Below, piece by piece: positions 3-19,202 of a stretch of 64,000 nucleotides of DNA. The notes under the pieces were generated by a model, which was not told where the DNA came from, did no database searches, and worked only from the letters and a program-made list of their open reading frames with translations. The position numbers and the translations under genes are program-made. This DNA comes from Roseimicrobium gellanilyticum (GTDB lineage Bacteria > Verrucomicrobiota > Verrucomicrobiia > Verrucomicrobiales > Verrucomicrobiaceae), in the NCBI RefSeq assembly GCF_003315205.1, contig NZ_QNRR01000001.1, positions 620,001 to 684,000 of the forward strand, in the 5' to 3' direction. Numbering within the stretch: position 1 is the first letter of the stretch; each line of letters opens with the position of its first letter.

Positions 3-3000
3 AACAGAATTGTCTTCCTGAATAGCGTGGCAGGCTTGGAACCGGGCATGGGAATCTCTGGTACAGGGATTCCGACAGATACCAAAATTGTGTCCGTGAA
101 TGCTGCCACGGGAGCGGTGCTGTTGAGCAAAGCTACGACTGCGGCGCCACCCGCCGTCGGCAGCAATTACAGCGTCTACGCACTGAGCAACACCATCACA
201 TTGTCCACGGTGCAAGGACTTCAGATCGGCATGGGCATCTCAGGAAATGGCATCCGGATAGGTACTGTCATCACTGCCATTGATCCTGTGACCAAGACGG
301 TGGTTCTGAGTGCGGCTACCAACGGGCCCATCAACGAAACAACGATCCAGACGGTGCCCATCCCGGCGGTGGCTTACAATGTGTCTGCGACTGCTGCGTC
401 CGGCTCCAACACACTCGTACTTTCCTCGGTGGCTGGCTTGTCCATTGGTGCCACGGTGAGCGGTACGGGCGTCCCGAACGGCACGGTCATCACCGCCATC
501 AATCCCGCGACCAACACCGTCACTCTCAGCCAGCCGATCAGTGCGCAAATTGCCGCTGCGGCGTCTGTGAACATCCGCAAGGTTTCCAACTTCTCCGAAA
601 CCCGTCTCTATCAGGCTGCGGGAGGTAAGTCAGACTTCCAGATGCGCTTCACGGACGATGGCGGATTTAGCCTGCAAAATGAAGTTGGAGCGTTGACCAA
701 AGTAGGGCGCGGTGTCGTAACACTGAGCGGCAGCACCGCTGGAGCGAGCGATCTGGATGGCGGGATCAACGTTCACGGAGGAACGCTGGAACTTCTGTAC
801 GGCCAGGCAAACACGAACAACTCCCGTGTGAACGGTGGAACTGCGGCCAACCCCTACCAGTTGACCCTGGCAGGTGGGGAACTCAAGATGTCGGCGCTAG
901 GCAACTCTTCCGTCGCACAAACGGTGAATGAGTCTTTCCGCGGTGTGTTCACACTTCGAGCGGGCAACTCCTCCATCAAGGCTGGGGCTAACAGTGAGTT
1001 TGCCACCATCGTTCTGAACTTGGGCCTGGACAATCCGTTCTCTGTCTTCATCTCGGAGCCTACGTCTGCTTCCTCAGCCATCCAGAATCCTGATTGGTAC
1101 TGGAGGGCTCCTGATCGTTTTGCAGGCGCTACGATTGCCTTCGATGGAACGCCTCTCACGTCCACGACCATCCGTTATTTGTATTCTCAGAATGCGCTCA
1201 ATGGCAACGGCTTCGCTGACAATGGGCTTCTGGGCTATTTCACCTCCATCCCGTATGCGACTTTCAAGGCTGGTTCTATTGGAAACCCCTCCTATGTGGA
1301 TTTCGCATCCTTCATTCCCGAATCCACCAGCAATCCAAATCTCAACAATACCGTCATCGGTGATTCCAGCGGTCTACTCGGGAACGTGCTCTTCAAGGAC
1401 TACGGTGGAGGCGGCACCTTTGCGTCGCAACTCGGAAGCTGGAGTTCGTATGTAAGTGCTGCGGGTGGCACTGAATACATGACCGATGCCCTTTTTGCGG
1501 GCTCGACCGGATTCACAGGAACGCTCAATGCCAACAGTGGGGGCAACTTCTATGGGGCGAAACTCATTCGATTTGCCGCCGCCGCTTCGAGTACCATCAA
1601 CATTGCTGCGGGCACCCGACTCGTCCTTGGCACCACCGCTCCCGGGGAAGGTGTTTTTGGTACGGCAGGCCTTTCCGTGCAGGACGGCGGAGCCATCCTG
1701 ATCTCCAATTCAGTTGGCGCTAATAACCAGGGGATTGAGGGTGGCGAGCTCACTTCCGCATTGCTGAGCACGTACTATACTCAGCCTCTCACAACCACGA
1801 CCGCTTCGGCGGCTGGTGGTACTGTCGGAGGGAATACCTTGGGCGTGGCTTCCGTAAGTGCGCTGAAAGTAGGCATGACTGTATCCGGCGCTGGCATTGT
1901 GCCTGGCAGCTATATCACAGACATCAATCGGGTGACGAATACCGTGACGCTCAATACGGGCCTGAGCGCGGCCGTGAGCAACGGAGCGGTTCTTGAGTTC
2001 CGCGACCTCCCACAATACCACGTGGCAAACTATTTCAGCAACACCAATGGTAACGCAACCGCCGGAACCACGACGCTCACGCTCCAATCCGTGGCTGACC
2101 TGGTGGTGGGAATGAGGATCTCCACAGATGCTGGTAACCTCTTTGCTCCAGGAACCACCATCATAGCGATCAATAAAGCAACAAATCAGATCACGTTGAG
2201 TTCCGGCACCCTTGCGGATGTCAACGACTTCACAGGCCTGCAGTTCGATCTGTTCGCGGCCCAGGCCCCCTCCATCCGCCCTGCGAATACCACGATATCA
2301 CTCAGCTATCCCGCACACGCTTCTACCTTCGATGCGCGGGACCTCATCATTCACAACTACAATGAGCAGGGTGTCTTCACGATCGGTTCACGTATCGTAG
2401 ACTTCACAGGAGCCCTTGATGGAGGGCCCTCCCGTCTCAACCTCGTCATTGGTGGTCCCGGGGTTACGCATCTGACGAATGCCACCAACAACTACACGGG
2501 CTCGACCTTTGTCAGCGGTGGAGGAACAGATGCCGCTGGTAACCTTCTGGTGGGTACGCTGTGGATTGCGAACGAAAACCGTCTGGGAGCCACGCCAGGC
2601 TCGGTCAATCCGGCATCGATCTTCCTGAACGGTGGGCGTCTGCGTTTTGACTCCGATGTCAGTGGTTCGTCCCTCGGGTCTGCACTCACTCTGCATCAGA
2701 ACCGGGGCATCACCTTGGGTGGCAACGGCGGCTACATTGACGTGTTCCATGCCGGCACGACCCTGACCTATGGTGGTGTCATTCGTTCAGAAGACAACAT
2801 CCAGATGGGCAATCTGGGTTCCAACCAGTACTATGGCAACATTGGTTCGGGCGACCTGATCAAGGAAGGAAATGGCCGGCTGATCCTGACCAATGACAAC
2901 AGTGTCGCGAATCTGATTGCTCCGATTTCCTCGGTTCCTTTCACTACCTGGAATGCGTACTTCGGCATCACGGATGTGAAGGCGGGTACGCTGCAGTTGA

Positions 3001-3770
3001 ACATTGGCAAAGCCAACTCCGGTATCTTGGGCAGCAATGATTCTACCATCGACGGCACGATTGTGAGAGCAGGCGCTCGCCTTGATCTCCAAATCACGGG
3101 TGGCTCGGCTCACGGCACGAAGGAATGGATCACCCTGGCTGGAGGCGTGCTGGGTACCACGGCGCTCCATACGGACGGTGCACTGGATGGCGTGATCAGC
3201 GTGACCGCGAACAGTGAGATCAATGTGGCCGCAGGCAACCTGCGCCTCAATGGCAGCTCCGGATTCCTGCAGGGCACGGGAACGATCACGAAGACCGGTA
3301 CTGGTTCACTGATGCTGTTTGAGAACAATTCTGACTTCAGCGGTGGGTGGGTCATCCAGGAGGGTTCCATCATAACCCGCAGCCAGGGACGTGTGACCGG
3401 CCAGGGTGGTTCCATTCTGATTGGCACCAGCGGAGCGGCAGCGGGCTTGGGTACCGCCGGTCTCTATCAACGCTCCCGCACCTCGGGAGGTGTGTTCACC
3501 ACGGAGTATAAGATCACGCAAAACATCGTGGTTAGGGCGGAATCCAGTGGCTCGCAGGTCAAGGAAATCGGGGTGCGCAATGATTTGAACGAATTTTCAA
3601 ATGTCACCGTCAACACCGTCTCCGGCAGCCCGGTCGTGACGGTATCAAGTGTGGCGAATCTGTTCACGGGGATGGTCACCCAGTCGGCCATCGCCGGCAT
3701 GCCCGCTGGCGCCATTATTCTGGCCATTGATCCGGCGACCAACAGGGTGACCTTCAACACCAATGCCACC
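3..3770 (+). repeat. Six copies of a ~48-residue coding repeat module
   Basis: Copies lie at about 3-152, 186-326, 402-542, 1819-1968, 2055-2210 and 3622-3770. Each encodes a V-x-S-V-x-x-L-x-x-G-M start, a G-T-x-I/V-x-x-I half and an A-T-N-x-V-T-L end. The first three are almost adjacent; the others are separated by unrelated beta-repeat sequence. Copies differ at many codons, so this is old duplication rather than recent expansion. Confidence 0.75.
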
Positions 3771-5720
3771 AGCACCGCGTCAGCAGCCGGCAACATCGGC
3801 TACAACAACAGTGGCATGAACAATGACCGGTACAGCTTCGCAGGAACGCTGACCCTCAATGACGATCTGCAGGTGGCCTACCGCGACAATGGCACCAATC
3901 CGGCACTCACTCCGACTGGTACCAATCCGGATGGGTCACAACGGACGGGCATCACCCGCATCATTGGGCTGGATGGAAATATCAGCGGCACCGGGAACCT
4001 CACCACGGTGGTGGATCTGGTCGGCGGCACGGCTACCGTGAACAGCATCTTTGAACTCAACGGCGAGAACTCCTCGTGGGTGGGTGATTTGACCATGGGT
4101 AACGCTGCAAGCCAGACCCGCATGCTGCACACCGTGCGTTTGGGAAGCAATACCGCCCTGAATGCTGCGAATGCGGTGACGCTGAGGAACAACAGCACCC
4201 TGCAGGTGGCTGGTCACACCGTTGAAATCGGCGACCTCTCCGTCAGTGTGACCGACGGCGGTGGAACTGTGGCGGTGGACAATGGTGCTGCGACCCGGGG
4301 TATCTTTATCGAGAATGCGTCCAACGACATCGCGACCCTCATCATCAATCAACTGGGTACCACCAATTGGGATGTCCATTTCCGTGATGGCACTACGCCC
4401 TCTATCTACAGTGCCTCCACTGCATTGGTGCACAGCAACAAACTGAACATCGTGAAGAGGGGTACTGGCGTGGGCATCATGACCCAAACCAACACCTATA
4501 CCGGTACCACCACCATTGAGAATGGCACGCTGCGTTCCGGTTCGAGCAATGTGCTTCCCGATGCGAGCCCCATCATCATCAATGCGACGGGAGCAGGAGT
4601 TACTGCCACGCTCGATCTGAACAACAACAATGATTCGATTGCCTCGCTGACGATGGGCGGGACCACGACCACCAGCACGCCGACTGTGCAAACGGGTACC
4701 GGCACTCTGACCCTGCTGGGCAATGTCACCTATGACGCTGCCAACAATCCGCAAGGTGGTACCATCAGCGGCAACCTTGCGCTGGGTGGAGCTTCACGCA
4801 CCTTCACGGTGGGTGACAGCACCACGGCCACGAACGATCTGACCGTGTCTGCCGTAGTGTCATCGGCTGGTACCGGTAGCATCGTCAAGACAGGTCTCGG
4901 TACGATGGTGCTCTCCGGCAACAATACCTACACGGGTACGACCACAGTCTCTCAAGGCCGGTTGCATGTGGGCGTTGGCGGTGGCGTTGGTTCTCGTGCC
5001 GCTGGTGATACCGGTGCGGCGGGAGCGAGTGCTACCACGGTCAGCGCGGGCGCTTTCTTGAGCGGTACCGGCACAGTCCAAGGTACAGCTTCCAGCACCG
5101 CTCATTCGATACAGGGCACTATTCAGCCTGGTAGCTGGAACGGTACGACCAGCGGCATTGGCAAACTCGACATCGTTGGCAATCTCAACGCCACGGGTGG
5201 TACGTTCGCACTCCAGCTCAGCGGCAATTCCATGAATGATGCCACCTTGGCGGGCTTCGTGGCCGGTTCCGCGGGCTACGACTCCCATGTCACCGCCCAG
5301 CTTGGCACTTACGAAGGTTCGGTCACCGGTATTGCGGGTGGCGCCAATCATGACTTCCTGAACATCTCGGGCAGTGTCACCTTGGACGGCAACACACGGA
5401 TTCAGGTGCAGACCGAGGGCAGCTACACCTATGCCGCAGGCGATATCTTTGACATCCTTGACTGGACGGGGCTGACGGCAGGTCTCTTTGATGTGGGCTC
5501 CATCACTGCCACCGGCAATGCACGCCTTCGCAGTGGGGGACTGAGTGGGGATCTGGAGTTGCCTACTCTTACCGGCAACCTTGTTTGGGACGTGCAAAAG
5601 CTCCTCTCGGACGGTATCCTGATTGTAGCCAACAACGTTCCAGAGCCCAGCAGGGCGATGCTTTTCGTGATCGGCTTCGCGGGAATGCTTCTGCGCCGTC
5701 GCAGGCCGACGAGGAAATAA
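3..5720 (+). CDS. Giant autotransporter-type beta-strand repeat protein with PEP-CTERM tail (5' end outside window)
   Basis: The frame is open from base 3 without a stop, and the residues before the first GTG (base 27) continue the repeat pattern, so the gene starts upstream of the window; 1905 residues are visible. Two repeat kinds alternate. One is a ~48-residue module (consensus like SSVAGLSIGxTVSGTGVP, then an xVITAINPATNTVTLS half) seen six times. The other is the Gly/Thr/Asn-rich autotransporter-associated beta-strand type, for example KTGLGTMVLSGNNTYTGTTT. The C terminus has VPEPS, a hydrophobic stretch and an RRRR tail, the PEP-CTERM signal processed by exosortase systems. No autotransporter translocator barrel is present. 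It is inferred to be a large exported surface protein, perhaps an adhesin or scaffold; ligand unknown. No exosortase gene lies in the window. Confidence 0.85.
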   Translation, partial: NRIVFLNSVAGLEPGMGISGTGIPTDTKIVSVNAATGAVLLSKATTAAPPAVGSNYSVYALSNTITLSTVQGLQIGMGISGNGIRIGTVITAIDPVTKTVVLSAATNGPINETTIQTVPIPAVAYNVSATAASGSNTLVLSSVAGLSIGATVSGTGVPNGTVITAINPATNTVTLSQPISAQIAAAASVNIRKVSNFSETRLYQAAGGKSDFQMRFTDDGGFSLQNEVGALTKVGRGVVTLSGSTAGASDLDGGINVHGGTLELLYGQANTNNSRVNGGTAANPYQLTLAGGELKMSALGNSSVAQTVNESFRGVFTLRAGNSSIKAGANSEFATIVLNLGLDNPFSVFISEPTSASSAIQNPDWYWRAPDRFAGATIAFDGTPLTSTTIRYLYSQNALNGNGFADNGLLGYFTSIPYATFKAGSIGNPSYVDFASFIPESTSNPNLNNTVIGDSSGLLGNVLFKDYGGGGTFASQLGSWSSYVSAAGGTEYMTDALFAGSTGFTGTLNANSGGNFYGAKLIRFAAAASSTINIAAGTRLVLGTTAPGEGVFGTAGLSVQDGGAILISNSVGANNQGIEGGELTSALLSTYYTQPLTTTTASAAGGTVGGNTLGVASVSALKVGMTVSGAGIVPGSYITDINRVTNTVTLNTGLSAAVSNGAVLEFRDLPQYHVANYFSNTNGNATAGTTTLTLQSVADLVVGMRISTDAGNLFAPGTTIIAINKATNQITLSSGTLADVNDFTGLQFDLFAAQAPSIRPANTTISLSYPAHASTFDARDLIIHNYNEQGVFTIGSRIVDFTGALDGGPSRLNLVIGGPGVTHLTNATNNYTGSTFVSGGGTDAAGNLLVGTLWIANENRLGATPGSVNPASIFLNGGRLRFDSDVSGSSLGSALTLHQNRGITLGGNGGYIDVFHAGTTLTYGGVIRSEDNIQMGNLGSNQYYGNIGSGDLIKEGNGRLILTNDNSVANLIAPISSVPFTTWNAYFGITDVKAGTLQLNIGKANSGILGSNDSTIDGTIVRAGARLDLQITGGSAHGTKEWITLAGGVLGTTALHTDGALDGVISVTANSEINVAAGNLRLNGSSGFLQGTGTITKTGTGSLMLFENNSDFSGGWVIQEGSIITRSQGRVTGQGGSILIGTSGAAAGLGTAGLYQRSRTSGGVFTTEYKITQNIVVRAESSGSQVKEIGVRNDLNEFSNVTVNTVSGSPVVTVSSVANLFTGMVTQSAIAGMPAGAIILAIDPATNRVTFNTNATSTASAAGNIGYNNSGMNNDRYSFAGTLTLNDDLQVAYRDNGTNPALTPTGTNPDGSQRTGITRIIGLDGNISGTGNLTTVVDLVGGTATVNSIFELNGENSSWVGDLTMGNAASQTRMLHTVRLGSNTALNAANAVTLRNNSTLQVAGHTVEIGDLSVSVTDGGGTVAVDNGAATRGIFIENASNDIATLIINQLGTTNWDVHFRDGTTPSIYSASTALVHSNKLNIVKRGTGVGIMTQTNTYTGTTTIENGTLRSGSSNVLPDASPIIINATGAGVTATLDLNNNNDSIASLTMGGTTTTSTPTVQTGTGTLTLLGNVTYDAANNPQGGTISGNLALGGASRTFTVGDSTTATNDLTVSAVVSSAGTGSIVKTGLGTMVLSGNNTYTGTTTVSQGRLHVGVGGGVGSRAAGDTGAAGASATTVSAGAFLSGTGTVQGTASSTAHSIQGTIQPGSWNGTTSGIGKLDIVGNLNATGGTFALQLSGNSMNDATLAGFVAGSAGYDSHVTAQLGTYEGSVTGIAGGANHDFLNISGSVTLDGNTRIQVQTEGSYTYAAGDIFDILDWTGLTAGLFDVGSITATGNARLRSGGLSGDLELPTLTGNLVWDVQKLLSDGILIVANNVPEPSRAMLFVIGFAGMLLRRRRPTRK

Positions 5721-5791: not shown

Positions 5792-5866
5792 TCCTGAGTA
5801 GCTCAGCGGTAGAGCGGGTGGCTGTTAACCACCATGTCGTAGGTTCGATCCCTACCTCAGGAGCCA
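5792..5866 (+). tRNA. tRNA-Asn (anticodon GTT)
   Basis: A complete cloverleaf can be drawn by eye. The acceptor stem TCCTGAG (5792-5798) pairs with CTCAGGA (5856-5862), followed by discriminator G and an encoded CCA (5864-5866). The D stem is GCTC/GAGC. The anticodon stem is GGTGG/CCACC with loop CTGTTAA and anticodon GTT at 5824-5826. The T stem is GTAGG/CCTAC with loop TTCGATC. It stands alone between the giant repeat gene and the ABC gene. Confidence 0.97.
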
Positions 5867-6126: not shown

Positions 6127-7869
6127 ATGACCGAGAAGAAGACATCCCTCAGAACTCAAGTGTTTCGCAGGCTGTTGCATGTGACGGCGATGTTTTTCAG
6201 ATCGCCGGTCGGCGGACGCGCCTGGTTGCTGGCCGCGGCTCTGCTGGTGCTGATGCTGTGTATCAACGGCATGAATGTGCTGAACAGCTTTGTGGGCCGG
6301 GACTTCATGTCGTCCATAGAAGCCAAGGACCGGTCGGGGTTTGTTCGTTACGCCTGGATGTATGCGGGCGTTTTTGCCACTACAACGATTGTCGCGGTCT
6401 TCTTCCGCTTTGTGGAGGAGCGTCTGGGCTTGCTCTGGCGTGACTGGCTCACCCATCGGGTCGTCCGCACCTACATGGACGAGCGCATCTATCTGCATCT
6501 CGATGCAGAAGGGATCACCAATCCCGACCAGCGCATGACAGAGGACATCAGGCAACTGACCACGACCACGCTGTCCTTCCTCTTGATGATTCTGAACGGA
6601 ACGATGACCGCGATCTCGTTCTCCGGGGTCCTGTGGACCATCAGCCCGACGTTGTTTATGGTCGCGGTCCTGTATGCCATTGCGGGATCGACGCTGACCA
6701 TTCTCCTTGGGCGTCCGCTCATCCGGCTGAACTACCAGCAAGCGGACTACGAGGCGAACTTCCGCTCTGAGTTGATCCATGTCCGCGAGAACGCTGACGG
6801 AATCGCACTCACCGCCAACCAGAACACCATCCGGGAGCGGCTGATGGGTCGCATCGATCAATTGGTCACAAATTTCCGCCGCATCACAGCGGTGAACAGG
6901 AATCTTGGTTTCTTTACCACGGGGTACAATTACATGATCCAGTTGATTCCCACACTTCTGGTGGCTCCGCTCTTCATGAATGAGGGGGTCGACTTCGGTG
7001 TGATTGGGCAGTCCGCCATGGCCTTTGCCACGCTGGTGGCGGCCTTCTCACTCGTGGTCACCCAGTTCCAGGCCATCTCCGCCTATGCTTCTGTTGTTAC
7101 CCGACTTGGTGAATTTGTGGACGCTTCCGAAAGGGCGGCCATGCAATCCGATACTCCCGCCATCGAGTGCCTGGAGGGTGTGGAAGGGATCAAATATTCG
7201 AGCCTCGACCTGCAGTCGGCAGACAAATCGGGGAATGTCATTCTCGGAGACTTGAACGCGCTCATCGTTCCGGGCAGGAGCCTGCTGGTGCATGGTGCGA
7301 ATCAGGCGGCCAGGGTCGCCTTCTTCCGGGCGTCTGCGGGCATCCACAGTACAGGCTCTGGCACCATTGCGCGGCCGCCGGAGGAGATGCTGGCCTTTCT
7401 CCCAGAGCAACCGTACTTACCTGCTGGCACTGCACGGGAAGTCCTTGTCCCATCAGGCAAGGAGCAGGAAATCACGAACCGGGAGCTACAACAGCTCTTT
7501 GCAGAGATCGGGCTGGCGTCTTCCAAGTTCAGGACGCCTGAGGATTTTGAAATCCCCCGTGACTGGCACGACGCGCTGTCACTTTCCAAACAGCAGTTGA
7601 TGTCTGTGGCTCGTGTCCTTTTGGCCAGACCCAAGTTTGTGTTTCTGGATAATCTTGGATCCGTACTGAGCACGCACGCGCAAAACAATGTCCTCGCGGT
7701 TCTGGCGAAGCGGGGCATTACCAGCATCTCCATTGGAGAAGAGGATCCGGATCCCACCCTCTATGACACGAGCCTGGAGCTGAGGGAGGACGGCTCGTGG
7801 AAATGGACGGACCTGAAGCAGGGCGCCGCGCCGACGGGCATACCAGGACAAAGCAATCTCGCATCATGA
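6127..7869 (+). CDS. SbmA/BacA/YddA-type ABC half-transporter with degenerate nucleotide-binding domain
   Basis: The protein has 580 residues. The N-terminal ~320 residues form a six-helix membrane domain like SbmA/BacA and YddA proteins (GRDFMSSIEAKD, RWRDWLTHR-like segment). The C-terminal ~230 residues align with an ABC ATPase domain by eye, but every catalytic motif is altered. Walker A reads GANQAARV (390-397), with no P-loop glycine pattern and R in place of K. The signature is LSLSKQQ (484-490) instead of LSxGEQQ. Walker B ends FLDN, with N509 for the catalytic E. The H-loop reads GEE, with E538 for H. The frame is intact over its full length, so this looks like a retained pseudo-ATPase rather than a decaying gene. 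It overlaps the following GH94-type gene by ATGA, indicating co-translation. Confidence 0.85.
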   Translation: MTEKKTSLRTQVFRRLLHVTAMFFRSPVGGRAWLLAAALLVLMLCINGMNVLNSFVGRDFMSSIEAKDRSGFVRYAWMYAGVFATTTIVAVFFRFVEERLGLLWRDWLTHRVVRTYMDERIYLHLDAEGITNPDQRMTEDIRQLTTTTLSFLLMILNGTMTAISFSGVLWTISPTLFMVAVLYAIAGSTLTILLGRPLIRLNYQQADYEANFRSELIHVRENADGIALTANQNTIRERLMGRIDQLVTNFRRITAVNRNLGFFTTGYNYMIQLIPTLLVAPLFMNEGVDFGVIGQSAMAFATLVAAFSLVVTQFQAISAYASVVTRLGEFVDASERAAMQSDTPAIECLEGVEGIKYSSLDLQSADKSGNVILGDLNALIVPGRSLLVHGANQAARVAFFRASAGIHSTGSGTIARPPEEMLAFLPEQPYLPAGTAREVLVPSGKEQEITNRELQQLFAEIGLASSKFRTPEDFEIPRDWHDALSLSKQQLMSVARVLLARPKFVFLDNLGSVLSTHAQNNVLAVLAKRGITSISIGEEDPDPTLYDTSLELREDGSWKWTDLKQGAAPTGIPGQSNLAS

Positions 7870-10800
7870 CACCAACGCCATCATCCGTGACTTTTCCCTT
7901 CCGTGCCGCGAGTCCCTCCGGGCTGAGTGTCGAGCTGAATGCGAATGGCTCCATCCGGCGAATCGATCACGGAGACATCATGATCAATCTGTTTCTCGGG
8001 AACGAAGCTGAGGGCGGTCCCGCAAACATCTTCTTGAGGTTGCATGGCGAGAGCACCACAGTGATTCCGCTGATTGGTCCGTGCAGCTCTGCCTCCTACC
8101 GGTTTGAAGAGCGGGGCATGACTGCAAGTGGCAGATGGGGAGATCTGACTTTTCGGCTGCGTCTCGTGCTGGCGGAGTCGTCACCAGCCTGGTTCTGGCA
8201 CGTGGAAGTGGAGAATCACGGGATGAAGGAGGTGGCCTGCGACCTGGTGTACGTGCAGGACATTGCCCTCGCTCACTATGGCGCCATCCGTCTCAATGAA
8301 TATTATGTGAGCCAGTATCTGGACCACACGGCGTTGGATCACGCATCAAAGGGCGTGGCGGTGGCTTCGCGGCAGAACCAGTCCATGGGGGGACGCTGCC
8401 CGTGGACTGTCATTGGGTCACTGGGATGGGGCGTGTCCTACGCCACCGATGCATTGCAGTCCTACGGATTCAGCAGGCGCACGGGGGCTGAACTTGCGGG
8501 ACTGGCTGCCGATCTTCCTGGCAAGCGTTTGCAACATGAGCACTCCATGGTGGGCATCCAGGACGAGCGCTTTGTACTTCAGCCTGGAGCGAATGCCAGA
8601 CGGGGATTCTTTTCCTGGTTTGAATCAAACAAGTCCGAGGCTACATCACCCAAAGACCGCCGGTTCATCGAGTCGGCATTGACATTGCCGGAATCAGCTT
8701 GCCCGCCTTGGCCCGCAGATGCGACAGACTCGATGCCTGCGTGCGGACTCTTCGCTTCGGCTCCATTCTTGGAAGCGGTTGAACTCGCCGAGGATGACAT
8801 CAATGCGTTCGTCGGCCCGGAACGTCGTGATGCAGAATATGACCGTGGACACCTGCTCTCCTTCTTCACCGGGAAGCACAGCCATGTGGTGCTCAAGCGC
8901 AAAGAACTCCAGGTGCTTCGCCCGCATGGACATTTGCTGCGAACCGGCGGCGTATTGACTCCTGATGAGTCTGCCCTGGCCTCGACTGCATGGATGGGAG
9001 GCGTGTTTCACTCGATGGTCACGCAGGGCCACGTGAGCATCAATCGCTTCCTCTCCACCTGCCACACCTACCTGGGACTCTTCCGCAGCCATGGACAGCG
9101 CATCTTCATCGAATTGGAAGGGGAATGGGTTTTGCTGGGAGTGCCTTCCGCCTTTGAGATGAGACCTGGCTTCTGCCGCTGGTGGTACAAGCATCGCGCA
9201 GGAGTGGTTGAAGTGACGTCCGTTGCGCCAGATGATCGGCATGAACTCCTCCTTTCAGTGACCGTCCTCGCAGGGGCCCCCGCGAGGTTGCTGATTTCAC
9301 ACCACATCGCCATGAATGGCGATGACGGAAGCTCTTCGGTATCGGCTCAATACAAGGTGAAAGACCGTGCTGCATTCGTGCGCGCGATTCCGGAGAGTGA
9401 TGTGGGGCGCCGTTTCCCCGAAGGTGAGTTTGTCATCAAGCCCTCGCAGGGCACGCAGGTGGAAGGCATCGGAGGTGATGAGATGCTCTTTGCAGATGGC
9501 GTGTCGCGTAAACAGCCGTTCCTGTGTTTCGCAACCGCTCCTGCACTCTCCGTGGCGTTCAGCATCGAGGGCCGTCTGGTGCCGGAGTCTCATGAACATG
9601 GTGGAGGCTTCTGGGACTCTATTGGAGCCGGCCTGAAGATTGAGGCCCCTTCTGCAGGGGAGCATGCTGCACGAGCGAGCCAGCTGGCGGAGATCTTTCC
9701 CTGGTTCATTCACAATGCGCTGGTGCACTACCTTTCACCGCGTGGATTGGAACAGTATTCCGGAGGAGGGTGGGGGACGCGGGACGTTTGCCAGGGACCG
9801 GTGGAACTGCTTCTGGCACTCGGACGATTCGAGCCGGTGAGAGATCTGCTCTGCCGTGTGTTCCGTCAGCAGAACGCAGATGGTGACTGGCCACAGTGGT
9901 TCATGTTTTTTGACCGTGAGCGCGGTATTCGTCCGGGAGATTCACACGGTGATATCGTGTACTGGCCGTTGGTGGCTCTCGCGCAGTACCTGTCTGCCAC
10001 CGGTGATGCTGATCTGTTGGAGGAGCGCCTTCCATTTTTCCATCCTGAAGGCGATGTTGCGGCGGAGACCTGCACCGTGGCTGGTCATGTGGAACGCGCA
10101 TTGGATTTGATCCAACGCAGAGTCATTCCCGGCACGAGGCTTGCGGCCTATGGACACGGTGACTGGAACGACTCCCTCCAGCCTGCCAAGCCTGATATGC
10201 GCGAACGCCTCTGCAGTGCGTGGACTGTGACTTTGAATTATCAAACGCTCGTCGCCCTTGCCAATGCCTTCAGGACGCTCGGAGACACAGTACGGGCGAA
10301 GGAGTTTGAAGCGATGGCCTCCGCGGTGCTCGATGAATTCCAGCACACGCTCATCGTGGACGATGTCGTGGCCGGCCTGGCGTATTTCCATGAGGGCGGC
10401 AGGACAGACTATCTGCTTCACCCTGGTGACGAGGCGACGGGCTTGTCGTACAGCCTCCTGCCGATGATCCACGCGATTATCAATGACATGTTTGCGCCAC
10501 AGCAGGCGGCGGCTCATCTTGAGCTGATTCGCAGGCATCTCCTGGGCCCTGATGGTGCGCATCTATTTGATCGCCCGCTGGCTTACCGTGGTGGTATCCA
10601 GACGTATTTCCAGCGTGCTGAAAGCGCCAGCTACTTCGGCCGTGAAATCGGCATCATGTACACGCATGCCCACCTGCGCTATTGCGAAGCGCTCGCCCGG
10701 TATGGTGATGCAGAGGCGTTCTTCCATGCCCTGTGCCAGGCCAATCCCATTGCCATCCGGCAGATTGTTCCCTCCGCCGGGTTGCGACAGGCGAACTGCT

Positions 10801-11237
10801 ACTACTCCAGCTCGGATCCTGCCTTCGCGGATCGCTATGAGGCGTTTGAGCATTACGAGAAGGTGAATCTCGGCGAGGTAGCACTGGAGGGCGGCTGGAG
10901 GGTTTATTCCAGTGGGGCTGGTATTGCCACGCGCTTGATCATGCAGTGCTTCCTCGGCATTCGCGTGGAGAAGAATTCGATGGTAGTGGATGCTGTGATG
11001 CCCGCTTCTTTGGACGGGCTGCAGGCAAGACTGCAATTGTATGGTCGCTCCTTGGTGGTGCTCTATCGCGTGGGGAGTAAGGGCTGCGGGGTGATGTCCG
11101 TGGAGGTGAATGGAACCGTGTTGGACTTCACTCGTGAGCCAAATCCCTACCGTCCGGGAGCTGTCCGCATTCCGCTTGGTTCGTTCACCAGTCAACTGAC
11201 GGGAGATGGTGACAGGCTGGCCATCGTGCTAGGCTAG
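7866..11237 (+). CDS. GH94-type glycoside phosphorylase (NdvB/cellobiose phosphorylase-like)
   Basis: The protein has 1123 residues with no signal peptide. The ATG at 7866 overlaps the ABC gene stop (ATGA), which is why it is preferred over an earlier in-frame start at 7797. N-terminal beta-rich domains precede an (alpha/alpha)6 barrel with YSGGGWGTRD near residues 632-641 and GHGDWND at 763-769; the latter motif carries the general-acid Asp in GH94 phosphorylases. The length resembles 1,2-beta-oligoglucan phosphorylases more than the ~800-residue cellobiose enzymes. GH94 enzymes cleave or make beta-glucosidic bonds with phosphate or glucose 1-phosphate, usually in the cytosol. The substrate here is not determinable by eye. 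The coupled ABC gene suggests transport or sensing of the same glycan (inference). Confidence 0.82.
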   Translation: MTPTPSSVTFPFRAASPSGLSVELNANGSIRRIDHGDIMINLFLGNEAEGGPANIFLRLHGESTTVIPLIGPCSSASYRFEERGMTASGRWGDLTFRLRLVLAESSPAWFWHVEVENHGMKEVACDLVYVQDIALAHYGAIRLNEYYVSQYLDHTALDHASKGVAVASRQNQSMGGRCPWTVIGSLGWGVSYATDALQSYGFSRRTGAELAGLAADLPGKRLQHEHSMVGIQDERFVLQPGANARRGFFSWFESNKSEATSPKDRRFIESALTLPESACPPWPADATDSMPACGLFASAPFLEAVELAEDDINAFVGPERRDAEYDRGHLLSFFTGKHSHVVLKRKELQVLRPHGHLLRTGGVLTPDESALASTAWMGGVFHSMVTQGHVSINRFLSTCHTYLGLFRSHGQRIFIELEGEWVLLGVPSAFEMRPGFCRWWYKHRAGVVEVTSVAPDDRHELLLSVTVLAGAPARLLISHHIAMNGDDGSSSVSAQYKVKDRAAFVRAIPESDVGRRFPEGEFVIKPSQGTQVEGIGGDEMLFADGVSRKQPFLCFATAPALSVAFSIEGRLVPESHEHGGGFWDSIGAGLKIEAPSAGEHAARASQLAEIFPWFIHNALVHYLSPRGLEQYSGGGWGTRDVCQGPVELLLALGRFEPVRDLLCRVFRQQNADGDWPQWFMFFDRERGIRPGDSHGDIVYWPLVALAQYLSATGDADLLEERLPFFHPEGDVAAETCTVAGHVERALDLIQRRVIPGTRLAAYGHGDWNDSLQPAKPDMRERLCSAWTVTLNYQTLVALANAFRTLGDTVRAKEFEAMASAVLDEFQHTLIVDDVVAGLAYFHEGGRTDYLLHPGDEATGLSYSLLPMIHAIINDMFAPQQAAAHLELIRRHLLGPDGAHLFDRPLAYRGGIQTYFQRAESASYFGREIGIMYTHAHLRYCEALARYGDAEAFFHALCQANPIAIRQIVPSAGLRQANCYYSSSDPAFADRYEAFEHYEKVNLGEVALEGGWRVYSSGAGIATRLIMQCFLGIRVEKNSMVVDAVMPASLDGLQARLQLYGRSLVVLYRVGSKGCGVMSVEVNGTVLDFTREPNPYRPGAVRIPLGSFTSQLTGDGDRLAIVLG

Positions 11238-14200
11238 CACCGTGCTGGAACCAAGTTGCAGCTCTGCCACGAAGGGCAGAGCCGTGACGCGGACAATTGT
11301 CGCGCCGCTCTCGTATGGCTGCTTTGCGCCATCGGCTGTCACTGAGGCGATGATCTGTTTCCCGATGGGCAACGGTGGTGCGATGAACAACCCACCCGGC
11401 GGCATCGTGAGTGAGCCACGAATCTCCACATAGATGGCATCATCGTTTCGAGTCGCGATGCAGAATGCCAGGTCACCAAATCGCGTGGGGAGACCTTGCA
11501 CAGCGAATCCATCCTCCTGTGAAATCCACGCCCAGGGCATGCCGGCGGCGAGCACCAGAGAGGCAGTGGCTTCACGCTCGGAGGCTACCATGGATGCTAC
11601 TGCCAGCAGATATTCCGCAGCAATCCAAGTGTGAGGCACATCGCCAAGGTGGCCGGGTGAACGCGGATCACGCCACGTGATTTCCGGCCATTGATTCCAC
11701 TCCAGCGGACGGCGATCCGACAGGAAGAAGGTCAGCAGTTCGTTTGCCTCATCGCGCCGGCCCAACCGCACGAATGCGCCGATGATGCGGATCTCGTAGG
11801 CGGTGTAGTTGTTCCACGGCATTTCACCGCGATGCTTGCGGTGGAATCCGTCGATGTAGGTGTCCAGCATCGCGTGAAGGGGCTCACGAGGCAAGGCATC
11901 CGCAAAGTCCAGCATGGCAATCGCATTGGACGTCGCGGTGGGGTCGAAGTCCGCCCACTCCACCGAACCGGGGATGTACGCGAGACTCTTTTCTGCAATG
12001 ACCTTCTGAAGCGAGTGTGCGATGTCTTCCTGGAATGCTGCCGCCTCATGCCGCCACCGTGTGGCGTCTGCAGGTTGTCCCGCTTGTTCTGCTAGATCTG
12101 CCGCTGCCTCAAGTCCACGCACTCCCCAGAAGTCATCCCAGTAGGAGTGCACGGGGTGGGCGAGGTAGCCTTCATGGCTTGCGGACTCCGGCAGCAGGCC
12201 ATAGCAGGCGGCGAGATCTCCGGACTTGTATTGCGTCGTCTGCCGTTCAGACCGAATCGTGATGAGATAGTCTGCGGCCTTGCGGATGTGAGGCAGCATA
12301 CGTTGCAGGAAGCCGGGATCAGCGGCGTTGCGGAAGTCTTCCCGCAAACCCCACAGGAATTGTCCGTGGCTGTCGTGCTCCACCAACCAGTCGACACCGT
12401 CGCGGTCCACCACACAGGGCACAAAGCCGTCTTCGCGCTGGAAGGGAGCATACCATTCCAGAAACACGCGAAGGGCTTGTGGAAGCCCGGCCTTGGCCAG
12501 GGCCGCACCCATGATCACACAATCACGGACCCATGAGCGGGTATAGCGTCGCGGACCTGGCTGGATGGCAGGACCATCGCGATTGATCAAGATGTGTCCC
12601 GCGGCTGTGCGGAAACAATCAAAGACCATGCGCGTGTTCTCCGGCGCCTGCCAGGTCACTTTCCCCAATGTCTGACGCCAGTCCTCCACTGCGCGTGCGT
12701 AGGCATCCGTGCCGGCTGGGTTGGCCTTGTCGAAATAAGGGAAGGACACCGTGGCTTCGAGCACGGTCCCGCCGGTGGGGAAGTCCCATACCATCGCTCC
12801 ACCGATGTGCCCGCCTTCATCGCAGGCCAGCCGCCTTGGTGGCACTACACCTGCCTGGAGAAAGGAAGTCACGCCTCCTTCTTCGAAGCTGGCGGCTCCC
12901 ATTTCAGTGGGATGGGGAGTGCAGTTGAGAGGCCGGCCATCCACTCGCATGTCACCGCCGGTGCAGTCGATCTCATAGATCGGGCTCATGCCACCCAAAT
13001 TGCGGAATGCCTGCCACGGGGGATTCACCTGAAAGGGACGCACGGCGACGACCAGGCGGGTGCCTGGCTCCGCAGCGGGGCACTGCAGACGGTAGGTGAC
13101 GTGGAGAGTCAGAGTCTCTCTGTGGCCATCCACCCATGGCTGGATTTCGAGGCGCATTTCCCGGGCAGACCACGCTACGGCTGGCACGGGCACGCCGTCG
13201 GCGGCCATGGACAGTGAGGTATCGGCGTCAGCCCAGGAGAGCATGCCGTCCTGGGTGAGGATGAAGGGCTCCAGGGAAAAGCCCGCTTCATCCGTCTCCA
13301 CCATGCCCTCTTCATTGACCAAGGCACGGCGTCTTCCTTCGGGACTGCCAATGGGGGTCCAGTAGGATTGCTCCCGGTACCAGTAGCGTGGGAACATGCC
13401 GCGCGGGCATTCTGCGGCGACGTGATGGACAAACTCATTCGGTGTGCGTGAGAATGCGTCCGGCCTGAGCGAGACAGATTGGAGCGCCGCACAGGCGGAG
13501 TCCTTGAAGATGAGCCGCAGTTGGCTCGCCTCACTTCCGGGCATGGAGATGAAACTCCTGGCCCCCAGACCTGAGGTGGCCCGGTAGATGGAAGTCCAGC
13601 TTTCTCCATCGGTAGAGACTTCAACCCGATACGCCCTCGGTGGAAGTGAGTCTGGCCATGAGAGGACCAGCCCGCCGAAGCGTACTGGCTTGCCAAAGTC
13701 GATCCTGCACCACGGTTCTTTGTCTTCCGTACCCGCGCGCCAGATGGCCTGGGCATCTGCGTCCCAGATGTTGTCCGGAGCGTGCCCGGGCAGATGACTG
13801 GAGGCGCGGATCGACTTCGGTGCCAGGAGCGTCTGATCCGTCATGGAAGGACAAGAGAGCTCCAGTGTGCCCTTTCCTCCCGGTCCGGCGGCGATGGCAA
13901 TCTCGATCGCCTCGACATTGGATGGAGCGCCGCCTCCCGCAGGTCCCCAAGCGAAGGGGAACTCGCGTTCATTGAAACGGTAGTCCGTCCACTGCGATGG
14001 CAGTGCGAAATCCTGCCGCAGATGCCGCCACACATTGGCTCCTCCATCAGCAGCCACCTTGAATTCAAAATGGTTGGGCGGGCCGCTTCCGCGCAAACGG
14101 AAGCCGATGTCAAAGGTAGTGGGGAGGCTGAAAGAAAACGTGCGTCTTAGCACGACGAAGCCGCCGCCGCCGTGAAAGTCATAGTCCAGACGCAGGACGG

Positions 14201-14312
14201 TGGCGCCCTGCTCTGTACGAGGGGTGGAGAGTTCTCCTCTCGCCTGTCCAGAGGCAACGACTTGCCAGGAGCCAGCATCATCAAACAGGGAAAAGAACGG
14301 ATGTTCAGGCAT
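11229..14312 (-). CDS. F5/8C (discoidin) plus (alpha/alpha)6-barrel glycosidase-like protein
   Basis: The protein has 1027 residues. Residues ~1-160 form a beta-sandwich resembling a carbohydrate-binding module. Residues ~170-280 look like an F5/8 type C domain (ASSHLPGHAPDNIWDADAQ start, YRVEVSTDGESW core). The C-terminal ~450 residues form a helical barrel similar to GH15/GH63/amylo-1,6-glucosidase folds (RSWVRDCVIMGAAL, VEHDSHGQFLWGL, YWDDFWG, PWNNYTAYEI). There is no signal peptide at the chosen start, which is unusual for a discoidin-type protein, so it may be cytosolic or exported by another route. The gene converges on the GH94-type gene with a 9-base tail overlap. A role in the same glycan pathway is inferred; specificity unknown. 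Confidence 0.7.
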   Translation of the reverse strand: MPEHPFFSLFDDAGSWQVVASGQARGELSTPRTEQGATVLRLDYDFHGGGGFVVLRRTFSFSLPTTFDIGFRLRGSGPPNHFEFKVAADGGANVWRHLRQDFALPSQWTDYRFNEREFPFAWGPAGGGAPSNVEAIEIAIAAGPGGKGTLELSCPSMTDQTLLAPKSIRASSHLPGHAPDNIWDADAQAIWRAGTEDKEPWCRIDFGKPVRFGGLVLSWPDSLPPRAYRVEVSTDGESWTSIYRATSGLGARSFISMPGSEASQLRLIFKDSACAALQSVSLRPDAFSRTPNEFVHHVAAECPRGMFPRYWYREQSYWTPIGSPEGRRRALVNEEGMVETDEAGFSLEPFILTQDGMLSWADADTSLSMAADGVPVPAVAWSAREMRLEIQPWVDGHRETLTLHVTYRLQCPAAEPGTRLVVAVRPFQVNPPWQAFRNLGGMSPIYEIDCTGGDMRVDGRPLNCTPHPTEMGAASFEEGGVTSFLQAGVVPPRRLACDEGGHIGGAMVWDFPTGGTVLEATVSFPYFDKANPAGTDAYARAVEDWRQTLGKVTWQAPENTRMVFDCFRTAAGHILINRDGPAIQPGPRRYTRSWVRDCVIMGAALAKAGLPQALRVFLEWYAPFQREDGFVPCVVDRDGVDWLVEHDSHGQFLWGLREDFRNAADPGFLQRMLPHIRKAADYLITIRSERQTTQYKSGDLAACYGLLPESASHEGYLAHPVHSYWDDFWGVRGLEAAADLAEQAGQPADATRWRHEAAAFQEDIAHSLQKVIAEKSLAYIPGSVEWADFDPTATSNAIAMLDFADALPREPLHAMLDTYIDGFHRKHRGEMPWNNYTAYEIRIIGAFVRLGRRDEANELLTFFLSDRRPLEWNQWPEITWRDPRSPGHLGDVPHTWIAAEYLLAVASMVASEREATASLVLAAGMPWAWISQEDGFAVQGLPTRFGDLAFCIATRNDDAIYVEIRGSLTMPPGGLFIAPPLPIGKQIIASVTADGAKQPYESGATIVRVTALPFVAELQLGSSTVLA

Positions 14313-17759: not shown

Positions 17760-19202
17760 ATGGAATCATCCCAACCTCGCAGCTTGCGCGAGCGCCTTTT
17801 CGCGCCGGTGGACATTGCGTTTCTGGTGTTTTTCCGGCTGGGGTTTGCGGGCATCATGCTGTGGGAGGTGTACCGCTATTTCAGCCTGGGTCGCATCAAG
17901 CCGTACTACGTCGATCCCGGTTTTCACTTCAAATACTATGGCTTCGAATGGATCGAGCCGTGGCCGGGAGAGGGGATGTACTGGCATTTCACAGCCATGG
18001 CTGTGTTCGCCACGTGTATGCTGGTTGGCTTCTGCTACCGGTTGGCGGCGTTTCTTTTTGCCTGTGCGTTTACCTTCGTCTTCTTGCAGGACCAGGCGCA
18101 CTACCTGAACCACTTTTATCTGGTCTGCCTCATCTCCTTCCTCATGGTGCTGCTGCCGGCCAACTGTGCGTGGTCGATTGATGCATGGATGCGCCCACGC
18201 CTGCGCTCACAAGTCGTACCGGCATGGACGCTGTGGCTGCTGCGGGTGCAGATTGGCATTGTGTATTTCTACGGAGGGCTGGCCAAGCTGGGGCCGGACT
18301 GGTTGCAAGGCGAGCCCATGCGCATGTGGCTGGCGGATCGAGCCAGCAAGTTTCCGCGGATTGAGCACTATTTTTCCGAGGAGTGGTTCGTCTACGGCTT
18401 TGCGTACGGTGGCCTGCTCTTCGATTTGCTGGTGGTGCCGCTGCTCCTGTGGAGGCCCACACGTTGGATTGGCTATCTGTGGGCGCTTTCATTCCACCTC
18501 ATCAACAACCAGCTTTTCAACATTGGCATCTTCCCGTGGTTCATGCTGTGCGCCACACTCATCTACCTGCCGCCGGACTTTCCGAAACGCATCTGGGGTT
18601 TCCTGAGGGGAAAAAAATGGCAACCGCAGGCAGAGGCCTTGTCTCCGGTGGGGGCAGCGGCCACGGCAGGTTCATGGTCTTTTGGGCAGCGGGTGCTGGT
18701 GTCGTTTCTCGGGCTGTATCTGGTAGCCCAGTGTCTCATACCATTCCGCCATCTGCTGTATCCCGGTGATGTGAACTGGACGGAAGAAGGGCACCGTTTT
18801 TCCTGGCGCATGAAGCTCCGTGGCAAGGATGGAGAGGTTGTTTTCAAGGTGGTGCAGAAAGGTACTGGCAGATTCTGGGAGTTTGACCCCGAGGGCAATC
18901 TCACAAAGAAGCAGGTGGACGAGATGGCCGGGCGTCCGGACATGATCCTGCAGTTTGCCCATCACCTGGCGTGGGCCATGAGTGAGCGCGGATATGGCGA
19001 TGTGGCCGTGTATGCCAAAGCCATGGTCTCGCTAAACGGACGTGAGCCGGAACTGCTCGTCGATCCGATGGTGGATCTGGCACAGGTGAGGCGAAGCCTG
19101 GCGCACTCCACCTGGATCCTTCCGCTACAGGGGAAGTTGCGCAAACCGCAGATCCATCATGAGGAAGATGATTCACATCATCATCATGTGACTGCGGAGT
19201 AG
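17760..19202 (+). CDS. HTTM-domain membrane protein (vitamin K-dependent gamma-carboxylase homologue)
   Basis: The protein has 480 residues and several membrane helices over ~1-290. The segment YFYGGLAKLGPDWLQGEPM (around 165-190) matches the gamma-carboxylase family core (human GGCX has GIKKLDADW). The second Lys of that motif, the proposed catalytic base, is kept here as K176. A soluble C-terminal part (~300-465) follows and ends in an acidic/His-rich tail (EEDDSHHHH). Family members use reduced quinone to deprotonate substrates or drive epoxidation; the bacterial physiological substrates are mostly unknown. It lies downstream of the secreted Cys-rich gene on the same strand and converges with an Ig-like protein gene. 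Confidence 0.85.
   Translation: MESSQPRSLRERLFAPVDIAFLVFFRLGFAGIMLWEVYRYFSLGRIKPYYVDPGFHFKYYGFEWIEPWPGEGMYWHFTAMAVFATCMLVGFCYRLAAFLFACAFTFVFLQDQAHYLNHFYLVCLISFLMVLLPANCAWSIDAWMRPRLRSQVVPAWTLWLLRVQIGIVYFYGGLAKLGPDWLQGEPMRMWLADRASKFPRIEHYFSEEWFVYGFAYGGLLFDLLVVPLLLWRPTRWIGYLWALSFHLINNQLFNIGIFPWFMLCATLIYLPPDFPKRIWGFLRGKKWQPQAEALSPVGAAATAGSWSFGQRVLVSFLGLYLVAQCLIPFRHLLYPGDVNWTEEGHRFSWRMKLRGKDGEVVFKVVQKGTGRFWEFDPEGNLTKKQVDEMAGRPDMILQFAHHLAWAMSERGYGDVAVYAKAMVSLNGREPELLVDPMVDLAQVRRSLAHSTWILPLQGKLRKPQIHHEEDDSHHHHVTAE

Follow-up and report, generated by a model that had tools for sequence, protein, structure and literature searches.

An ABC-derived transporter with a decayed ATPase domain in a probable beta-1,2-glucan uptake module

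In Listeria innocua, the cluster Lin1839-Lin1841 encodes a 1,2-beta-oligoglucan phosphorylase (SOGP), a GH3 beta-glucosidase and a binding-protein ATP-binding cassette (ABC) importer, as set out in the accessible part of PMC12369401. The question of how an ABC protein becomes a secondary transporter rests so far on SbmA/BacA, and the available excerpt of PMC13316013 describes SbmA as proton-driven, with a ladder of six glutamates (E193, E203, E269, E276, E287 and E378). The same excerpt presents SbmA and Rv1819c, whose transmembrane domains (TMDs) are related to that of the protein studied here, as importers. We analyzed a 64,000-nucleotide stretch of Roseimicrobium gellanilyticum DNA (contig NZ_QNRR01000001.1, positions 620,001 to 684,000; hereafter the window, from genome G000), in which the genes P0001, P0002 and P0003 code for an ABC-like transporter, a GH94 phosphorylase and a glycosidase-like protein. 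We conclude that this conserved locus is probably a module for the uptake of beta-1,2-glucan, and that its transporter, of ABC descent, has abandoned ATP. The function that we consider probable is ATP-independent import of short beta-1,2-glucooligosaccharides by P0001, followed by their phosphorolysis by P0002. The features discussed, in window coordinates, are the following.

6127-7869, + strand: P0001, pseudo-ABC transporter, 580 amino acids (open reading frame, Pfam, homologue alignment and tree)
6169-7146, + strand: P0001 TMD, about residues 15-340 (PF06472 at 24-283, PF05992 at 77-330)
6745-6747, + strand: codon of P0001 Asp207 (homologue alignments)
7174-7812, + strand: P0001 decayed nucleotide-binding domain (NBD), about residues 350-562
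7294-7320, + strand: P0001 former Walker A, GANQAARVA, residue 390 (alignment with intact relatives)
7576-7599, + strand: P0001 former signature motif, LSLSKQQL, residue 484 (alignment with intact relatives)
7636-7671, + strand: P0001 former Walker B/D-loop, FVFLDNLGSVLS, Walker B residue 504, with the catalytic Glu changed to Asn
7866-7869, + strand: ATGA stop/start overlap of P0001 and P0002
7866-11237, + strand: P0002, 1,2-beta-oligoglucan phosphorylase homologue, GH94, 1123 amino acids (Pfam, 5h3z match)
10170-10172, + strand: codon of P0002 Asp769, counterpart of the LpSOGP catalytic acid D760
11229-14312, - strand: P0003, CBM32-like and supersandwich-(alpha/alpha)6 glycosidase-like protein, 1027 amino acids (Pfam, alignment, model)

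The transporter, its clade and its partner enzymes

The membrane half of P0001 matches PF06472 (ABC_membrane_2, E 3.5e-37) and also PF05992 (SbmA_BacA, 50.6 bits against a cut-off of 24, E 2.6e-13), so that its TMD is homologous to that of the SLiPT proteins. No Pfam match was obtained for the ATPase half. Alignment to intact relatives revealed that other residues stand in place of the Walker A Lys-Ser/Thr, the signature Gly, the catalytic Glu and the H-loop His (the H-loop position reads SIGEE, residue 535), and P0001 passes one of five ATPase motif tests, without the working motifs of the YddA/BclA/Rv1819c importers. The closest solved relative is Rv1819c (6tqe, E 1.4e-54), followed by ABCD proteins. 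A predicted model (mean pLDDT 76, pTM 0.68) returned 6tqe at rank 1 in Foldseek, and ABCD1 came top in a second structural comparison (Z 26.0, rmsd 6.9, 409 aligned residues). P0001 is a YddA/Rv1819c-class ABC protein with a decayed ATPase domain. A sequence-only reading of this DNA had called it a pseudo-ATPase of another ABC class than NdvA, and both statements hold. The ATGA overlap with P0002 that it had noted is also present, although it is not fixed: in the other genome of this genus (G061) a gap of ~47 bases separates both genes.

The decay is not peculiar to P0001. Among 106 aligned homologues, 34 including P0001 pass zero to two of the five motif tests and 71 pass all five; the remaining one passes four, and its sequence ends early. 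Near-identical strains were kept separate in these counts, and five rows were dropped beforehand (L086, equal to L042; L081, equal to L054; L154, equal to L062; L160, a split frame; and L108, partial). All 34 decayed sequences lack the catalytic Glu and the H-loop His; among them are two without any ATPase domain and one truncated at the end of its contig. In a tree built from the membrane part alone, with all 34 decayed and a hand-picked 31 of the 72 other sequences, a single branch sets the decayed ones apart from the rest (SH-aLRT 99). This clade spans several phyla and is nested, in our trees, among YddA/BclA/Rv1819c-type ABC proteins. Its basal member, from a planctomycete (L082), retains the Walker A GPDGIGKTS and an ABC_tran match above the cut-off. 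Four relatives of 354-364 amino acids (L155, L156, L206 and L209) match ABC_membrane_2, end after the last membrane helix and have no ATPase domain at all. They form one clade (support 100/99) within the subclade containing P0001, in a tree of 35 decayed-clade rows from which L046 was left out, and SOGP is the next downstream same-strand gene in all four. From these domain-less relatives, and from the 34 sequences that pass so few tests, it is well supported that the decayed clade no longer uses ATP. A short sequence resembling the end of P0001 (43%) was also seen in genome G067 (contig C1, 3432462-3432599), just past a GH94 gene that follows a P0003 homologue; in that genome the transporter gene has apparently degenerated.

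Heterodimeric ABC proteins often contain a pseudo-NBD, and the decayed half of P0001 might accordingly be one side of a heterodimer, or work with a separate ATPase. Purifying selection on the decayed domain would agree with such a role: in eight close pairs omega was 0.065-0.21 for this domain and 0.03-0.14 for the membrane part, selection on the domain being somewhat weaker in six of the eight. Against it stand the four relatives without the domain. Furthermore, one strong YddA-family match was found in G000 (a second is weak and partial) and one in G061, hence no intact partner subunit of this family was seen in either genome, and on that ground the idea of a partner ATPase subunit encoded in the same genome was rejected. 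We regard a heterodimer or a separate ATPase as quite unlikely, and read the decayed domain as one kept as a structural piece.

P0002 matches SOGP_N (228 bits), SOGP_2nd (160), Glyco_hydro_94 (28.0) and SOGP_4th (34.6), all above the cut-offs of 27, and Pfam detected no synthase domain in it; its description as an SOGP-type enzyme devoid of a synthase domain was therefore right. Its closest solved relative is 5h3z (E 3.7e-179). The alignment with LpSOGP covers residues 35-1115, and the SOGP active site is conserved: of the residues that bind glucose 1-phosphate and sophorose, as far as the accessible text of PMC5309861 describes them, P0002 keeps N144, Y147, Q630, R639, D640, W767 and the catalytic D769, as well as the further ligand residues R917, R926, E927, Y932, H934, Y1014 and S1015. 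Where SOGP is not the partner, other genomes pair the transporter with a GH94 protein of the NdvB C-terminal type (supersandwich domains and a GH94 barrel), with no synthase domain in the three proteins scanned. P0002 and ten aligned GH94 partners of both types agree without exception at R639, D640, D766-D769, R926, E927, Y932, H934 and Y1014. The transporter stays while its partner changes from one beta-1,2-glucan type of GH94 to the other, which points to a beta-1,2-glucan as the substrate. Together with the conserved ligand residues, this makes beta-1,2-glucan, as had been suggested, the most likely substrate.

P0003, whose gene converges tail to tail with P0002, belongs to a family that the sequence-only reading did not mention. 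Pfam detected a CBM32-like domain and nothing beyond that region. Seven aligned homologues share 40-63% identity with P0003 and strongly conserved motifs that include D597 and E877, and across these eight proteins the catalytic part gave weak matches only (Bac_rhamnosid6H, GDE_C, GH95 and GH15). When the catalytic half was searched by sequence against solved structures, only MmpH was found (E 0.0013). The predicted structure (mean pLDDT 80) is similar to those of supersandwich-(alpha/alpha)6 enzymes, with dextran dextrinase, GH15 and GH94 among the Foldseek matches; a second comparison gave GH78 (Z 21.5, rmsd 4.3-4.6, 395-397 aligned) and MmpH (Z 20.2, rmsd 4.0, 302 aligned). P0003 has no visible signal peptide, and homologues at L215, L218, L219, L220 and L221 start with an apparent one, as judged by eye. 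P0003 may represent a new glycoside hydrolase family, a candidate tied to beta-1,2-glucan by its gene neighbours. It accompanies GH94 as often as the transporter does, and in genome G377 a phosphoglucomutase gene adjoins its homologue.

Gene linkage across genomes

The pairing of this transporter with a GH94 enzyme, which the sequence-only reading had put forward from one locus, is conserved and reaches beyond Verrucomicrobiota. In the flanks that were fetched, 16 of the 34 decayed-ABC loci have a GH94 gene and none of the 72 others does (Fisher p 6e-10, with relatedness ignored). P0003 homologues are likewise present at 16 of these 34 loci, and at one of the 72 (L084). A P0002-like match was found in 7 of 68 genomes of the window's family, with the decayed ABC gene beside it in all seven, at ~4 kb in one of them (G062). 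Other loci have a GH1 gene beside the ABC gene (L063, L067, L070 and L071, overlapping it in Chromatiaceae), and at the basal L082 the gene immediately upstream is a GH144. With GH94, P0003-like, GH1 and GH144 genes counted, 24 of the 34 decayed-ABC loci have a linked beta-glucan gene, and an OpgG-family gene adjoins L074. Genome-wide, GH94 is present in 32 of the 34 decayed-ABC rows, including 16 of the 18 without GH94 in the flank, versus 3 of 13 intact-only controls; P0003 homologues occur in 19 of 22 decayed-ABC genomes tested versus 2 of 13.

Gene order varies: ABC-SOGP, SOGP-ABC-P0003, convergent ABC and GH94, and divergent ABC and P0003-GH94 arrangements were all observed. Exact ATGA overlaps join ABC and SOGP in the window, ABC and P0003 at L066, ABC and GH1 at L063 and L071, and P0003 and GH94 at L044, L064 and L153. 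Longer overlaps join ABC and SOGP at L155 (23 bases) and L156 (8 bases), and ABC and GH1 at L067 (26 bases).

A GH94-centred set of 19 hand-picked regions (73 of 286 genomes had matches; L207 repeats L072) contains eight SOGP loci from more distant Verrucomicrobiota (L214, L215 and L217-L222) with an MFS_2-type sugar transporter and no decayed ABC; four were scanned with Pfam and the others assigned by homology. The MFS_2 family contains cation:sugar symporters. Most of the eight have TonB receptors, GH144 (PF10091) or GH3, and several a P0003 homologue; they are candidate beta-1,2-glucan utilisation loci of varying completeness. The order is receptor, SOGP, MFS_2, P0003 homologue at L219 and receptor, SOGP, MFS_2, GH144 at L222; from these layouts, the pseudo-ABC sits at the MFS_2 position of other loci and P0003 at the GH144 position. 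At one further SOGP locus, L210, genes for an ABC permease and ATPase of the conventional kind lie close by.

Several observations count against the proposed uptake module. At L084 (9956-14854) an ATPase-intact YddA-type ABC gene lies directly upstream of the P0003 homologue. Ten of the 34 decayed-ABC loci have none of GH94, P0003-like, GH1 or GH144 in the flank, several of these being cut by a contig end, and GH94 was not found in two of the 34 genomes, G449 and G063 (86% completeness). Five SOGP or P0003 loci (L205, L208, L211, L212 and L213) have no such transporter nearby. OpgG, a possible source of substrate, is present in 25 of 25 genomes tested, whether they have the transporter or not. 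The purifying selection on the decayed NBD indicates that this domain still does something. Finally, we know of no transport or enzyme assay for any P0001-P0003 protein. The genome of L084 also carries a decayed-ABC gene, L068.

P0001 might not be a glucan transporter, and its adjacency to the enzymes might be historical. The ten loci with no linked glucan gene agree with this, and the neighbours at the decayed-ABC loci L058, L059, L068, L069 and L046, which have no GH94, are from unrelated families. We consider a merely historical adjacency unlikely, since the same partners stay linked, in several different gene orders, across more than one phylum.

Energy coupling

The sequence-only reading had proposed that uptake is proton-driven, which is at present a conjecture. 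Of the six ladder positions of SbmA, P0001 has two (E139 = E193 and E209 = E276); E203, E269, E287 and E378 are replaced by Leu, Asn, Arg and Ala. Both glutamates are common to ATPase-intact relatives, E139 being found in 33 of 34 decayed and all 72 other sequences, and E209 in all 34 and 70 of the 72. A topology that unites the decayed rows with E. coli SbmA was rejected (p-AU, from the approximately unbiased test, 0.0006; the set comprised 18 decayed rows out of 34, 20 others out of 72 and a single SbmA sequence, whose branch is long). The missing ladder and the rejected clade led us to discard a classification of P0001 as a relative of SbmA that has its proton ladder. In addition, P0001 has a decayed NBD where a SLiPT protein has none, and the NBD is absent from the four short relatives.

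With the ladder reduced to two shared positions, coupling to protons, coupling to another ion, or downhill uptake pulled by phosphorolysis are all possible. Position 207 is an acidic position specific to the decayed clade, with Asp in 33 of 34 decayed rows and 34 of 35 in the later set; Arg occurs there only in the basal L082, and intact relatives have mostly K, R or Q. D207 is a candidate coupling residue, and an ion-coupled mechanism in the decayed clade is a proposal.

If the same uptake system were proton-coupled like SbmA, D207, near E209, would replace the ladder. SbmA shares the TMD fold family (PF05992) and is proton-driven in the part of PMC13316013 available, two of its glutamates align with E139 and E209, and the one row lacking D207 is that of L082, which retains the Walker A GKT. 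The four replaced glutamates argue against it, as does the equal conservation of the remaining two in ATPase-intact relatives, and D207 may have another purpose. We hold proton coupling of this kind to be a real possibility, if short of probable. Facilitated downhill uptake pulled by intracellular phosphorolysis, with no ion coupling, would account for how tightly the transporter is associated with the phosphorylase (their genes overlap in the window and at L155 and L156) and for the absence of the full ladder. It is the more doubtful of the two: the related SbmA is ion-coupled (PMC13316013, same excerpt), and the periplasmic oligosaccharide may be too dilute.

The separation of the decayed clade from SbmA looks like a second conversion of an ABC protein into a secondary transporter, with intermediates preserved. 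We suggest, tentatively and as somewhat less than an even prospect, that an ABC importer independently became an ion-coupled glycan secondary transporter a second time, with the steps preserved in living members and Asp207 and Glu209 as a new coupling site. The catalytic Glu and the H-loop His would have been lost first (all 34 sequences). The loss of Walker A and the gain of Asp207 would have followed (in every sequence except that of the basal planctomycete, a few others keeping part of the Walker A motif), and deletion of the ATPase domain would have come last, in one lineage.

Proposed function and comparison with known systems

In the reading that we favour, P0001 would descend from a YddA-type ABC importer and act as a homodimer in the inner membrane, taking up short linear beta-1,2-glucans (sophorooligosaccharides). 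Its decayed ATPase domain would be structural, and one sister lineage has deleted it. P0002 would cut imported oligosaccharides of at least three units with phosphate, giving glucose 1-phosphate, on whose fate the phosphoglucomutase gene of G377 bears, and P0003 probably cleaves remaining or modified glucan. This reading combines observations (the lost motifs, the clade, the linked genes, the domain-less relatives and the SOGP active site) with inferences on transport direction, substrate, energy source, homodimer formation and the part played by P0003. The import direction is suggested by that of SbmA and Rv1819c and by the MFS_2 sugar transporter of the eight other SOGP loci. The glucan is likely to be the cell's own periplasmic glucan, made and trimmed by OpgG/OpgH, or to be scavenged from neighbours. 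In G000 an OpgG homologue is followed by a GT2 protein of 730 amino acids, and according to the accessible portion of PMC11842490 OpgG and OpgD act on beta-1,2-glucan; recycling of periplasmic glucan in the source cell is thus possible. OpgG was dropped as a discriminating partner, given its presence in all 25 genomes. The GH144 endo-glucanase (PF10091) was not found in G000, and was found in 1 of 15 genomes.

Alternatively, P0001 could be an exporter, with SOGP running in reverse to make a beta-1,2-glucan that P0001 secretes, as in NdvB/NdvA. The GH94 reaction is reversible, as stated in the same portion of PMC11842490, and several loci have NdvB-type GH94 partners. We consider this very unlikely, and the least likely of the explanations weighed here: no synthase domain accompanies P0002 or the scanned NdvB-type partners, G000 already has OpgG/OpgH-like genes, the sister SOGP loci have importers, GH144, GH3 and TonB receptors, and the ATPase is lost, yet export needs energy.

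Uptake by P0001 would offer Gram-negative bacteria a candidate route by which periplasmic beta-1,2-glucan returns to the cytosol without ATP, and coupling to phosphorolysis would save further ATP. In this one clade, which has intact sisters, the basal member retains Walker A, many members are fully decayed and four lack the domain, and the clade is tied to one likely substrate. Our literature searches found no description of such a transporter, and no paper combining YddA, SbmA and glucan; for oligoglucan phosphorylase in Verrucomicrobia they listed one paper, which concerns CBM92.

Elsewhere in the window, a tRNA-Asn (5792-5866) lies upstream of P0001. The gene at 27-5720 (+ strand) encodes a long autotransporter-like protein, which has passenger-associated transport repeats (PATR) and ends in an anchor-like tail; the one at 17760-19202 (+ strand) encodes a bacterial protein with HTTM and a vitamin K-dependent gamma-carboxylase lumenal domain.

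Like the Listeria innocua cluster, the locus would pair SOGP with a beta-1,2-glucooligosaccharide importer; the importer there is a binding-protein-dependent ABC system, in the accessible part of PMC12369401, whereas here it is a one-polypeptide exporter-fold protein with no working ATPase. With SbmA/BacA (SLiPT), P0001 would share the exporter-fold TMD, import, independence of ATP and a YddA-like ABC origin (PMC13316013, in the excerpt available). It differs in its separate clade (AU p 0.0006), in the ladder reduced to two residues, in the decayed ATPase domain that most members of its clade retain, and in partner genes for sugar rather than peptide. The YddA/Rv1819c (BclA) ABC importers are the nearest class in sequence and structure and likewise have the TMD fused to an NBD, but in the P0001 clade the ATPase motifs are lost. 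The SOGP loci with MFS_2 also combine SOGP with an importer, and several have a P0003 homologue; there MFS_2 replaces the pseudo-ABC, the P0003 homologue is apparently exported, and most have GH144, GH3 and a TonB receptor. NdvA (Cgt) and NdvB, finally, are a transporter and a GH94 protein acting on beta-1,2-glucan, and some P0001 relatives pair with an NdvB-type GH94. A working NBD is a feature of NdvA/Cgt exporters; P0001 has no working ATPase and belongs to another ABC subfamily, P0002 has no glycosyltransferase or cyclisation domain, and P0001 would transport in the opposite direction.

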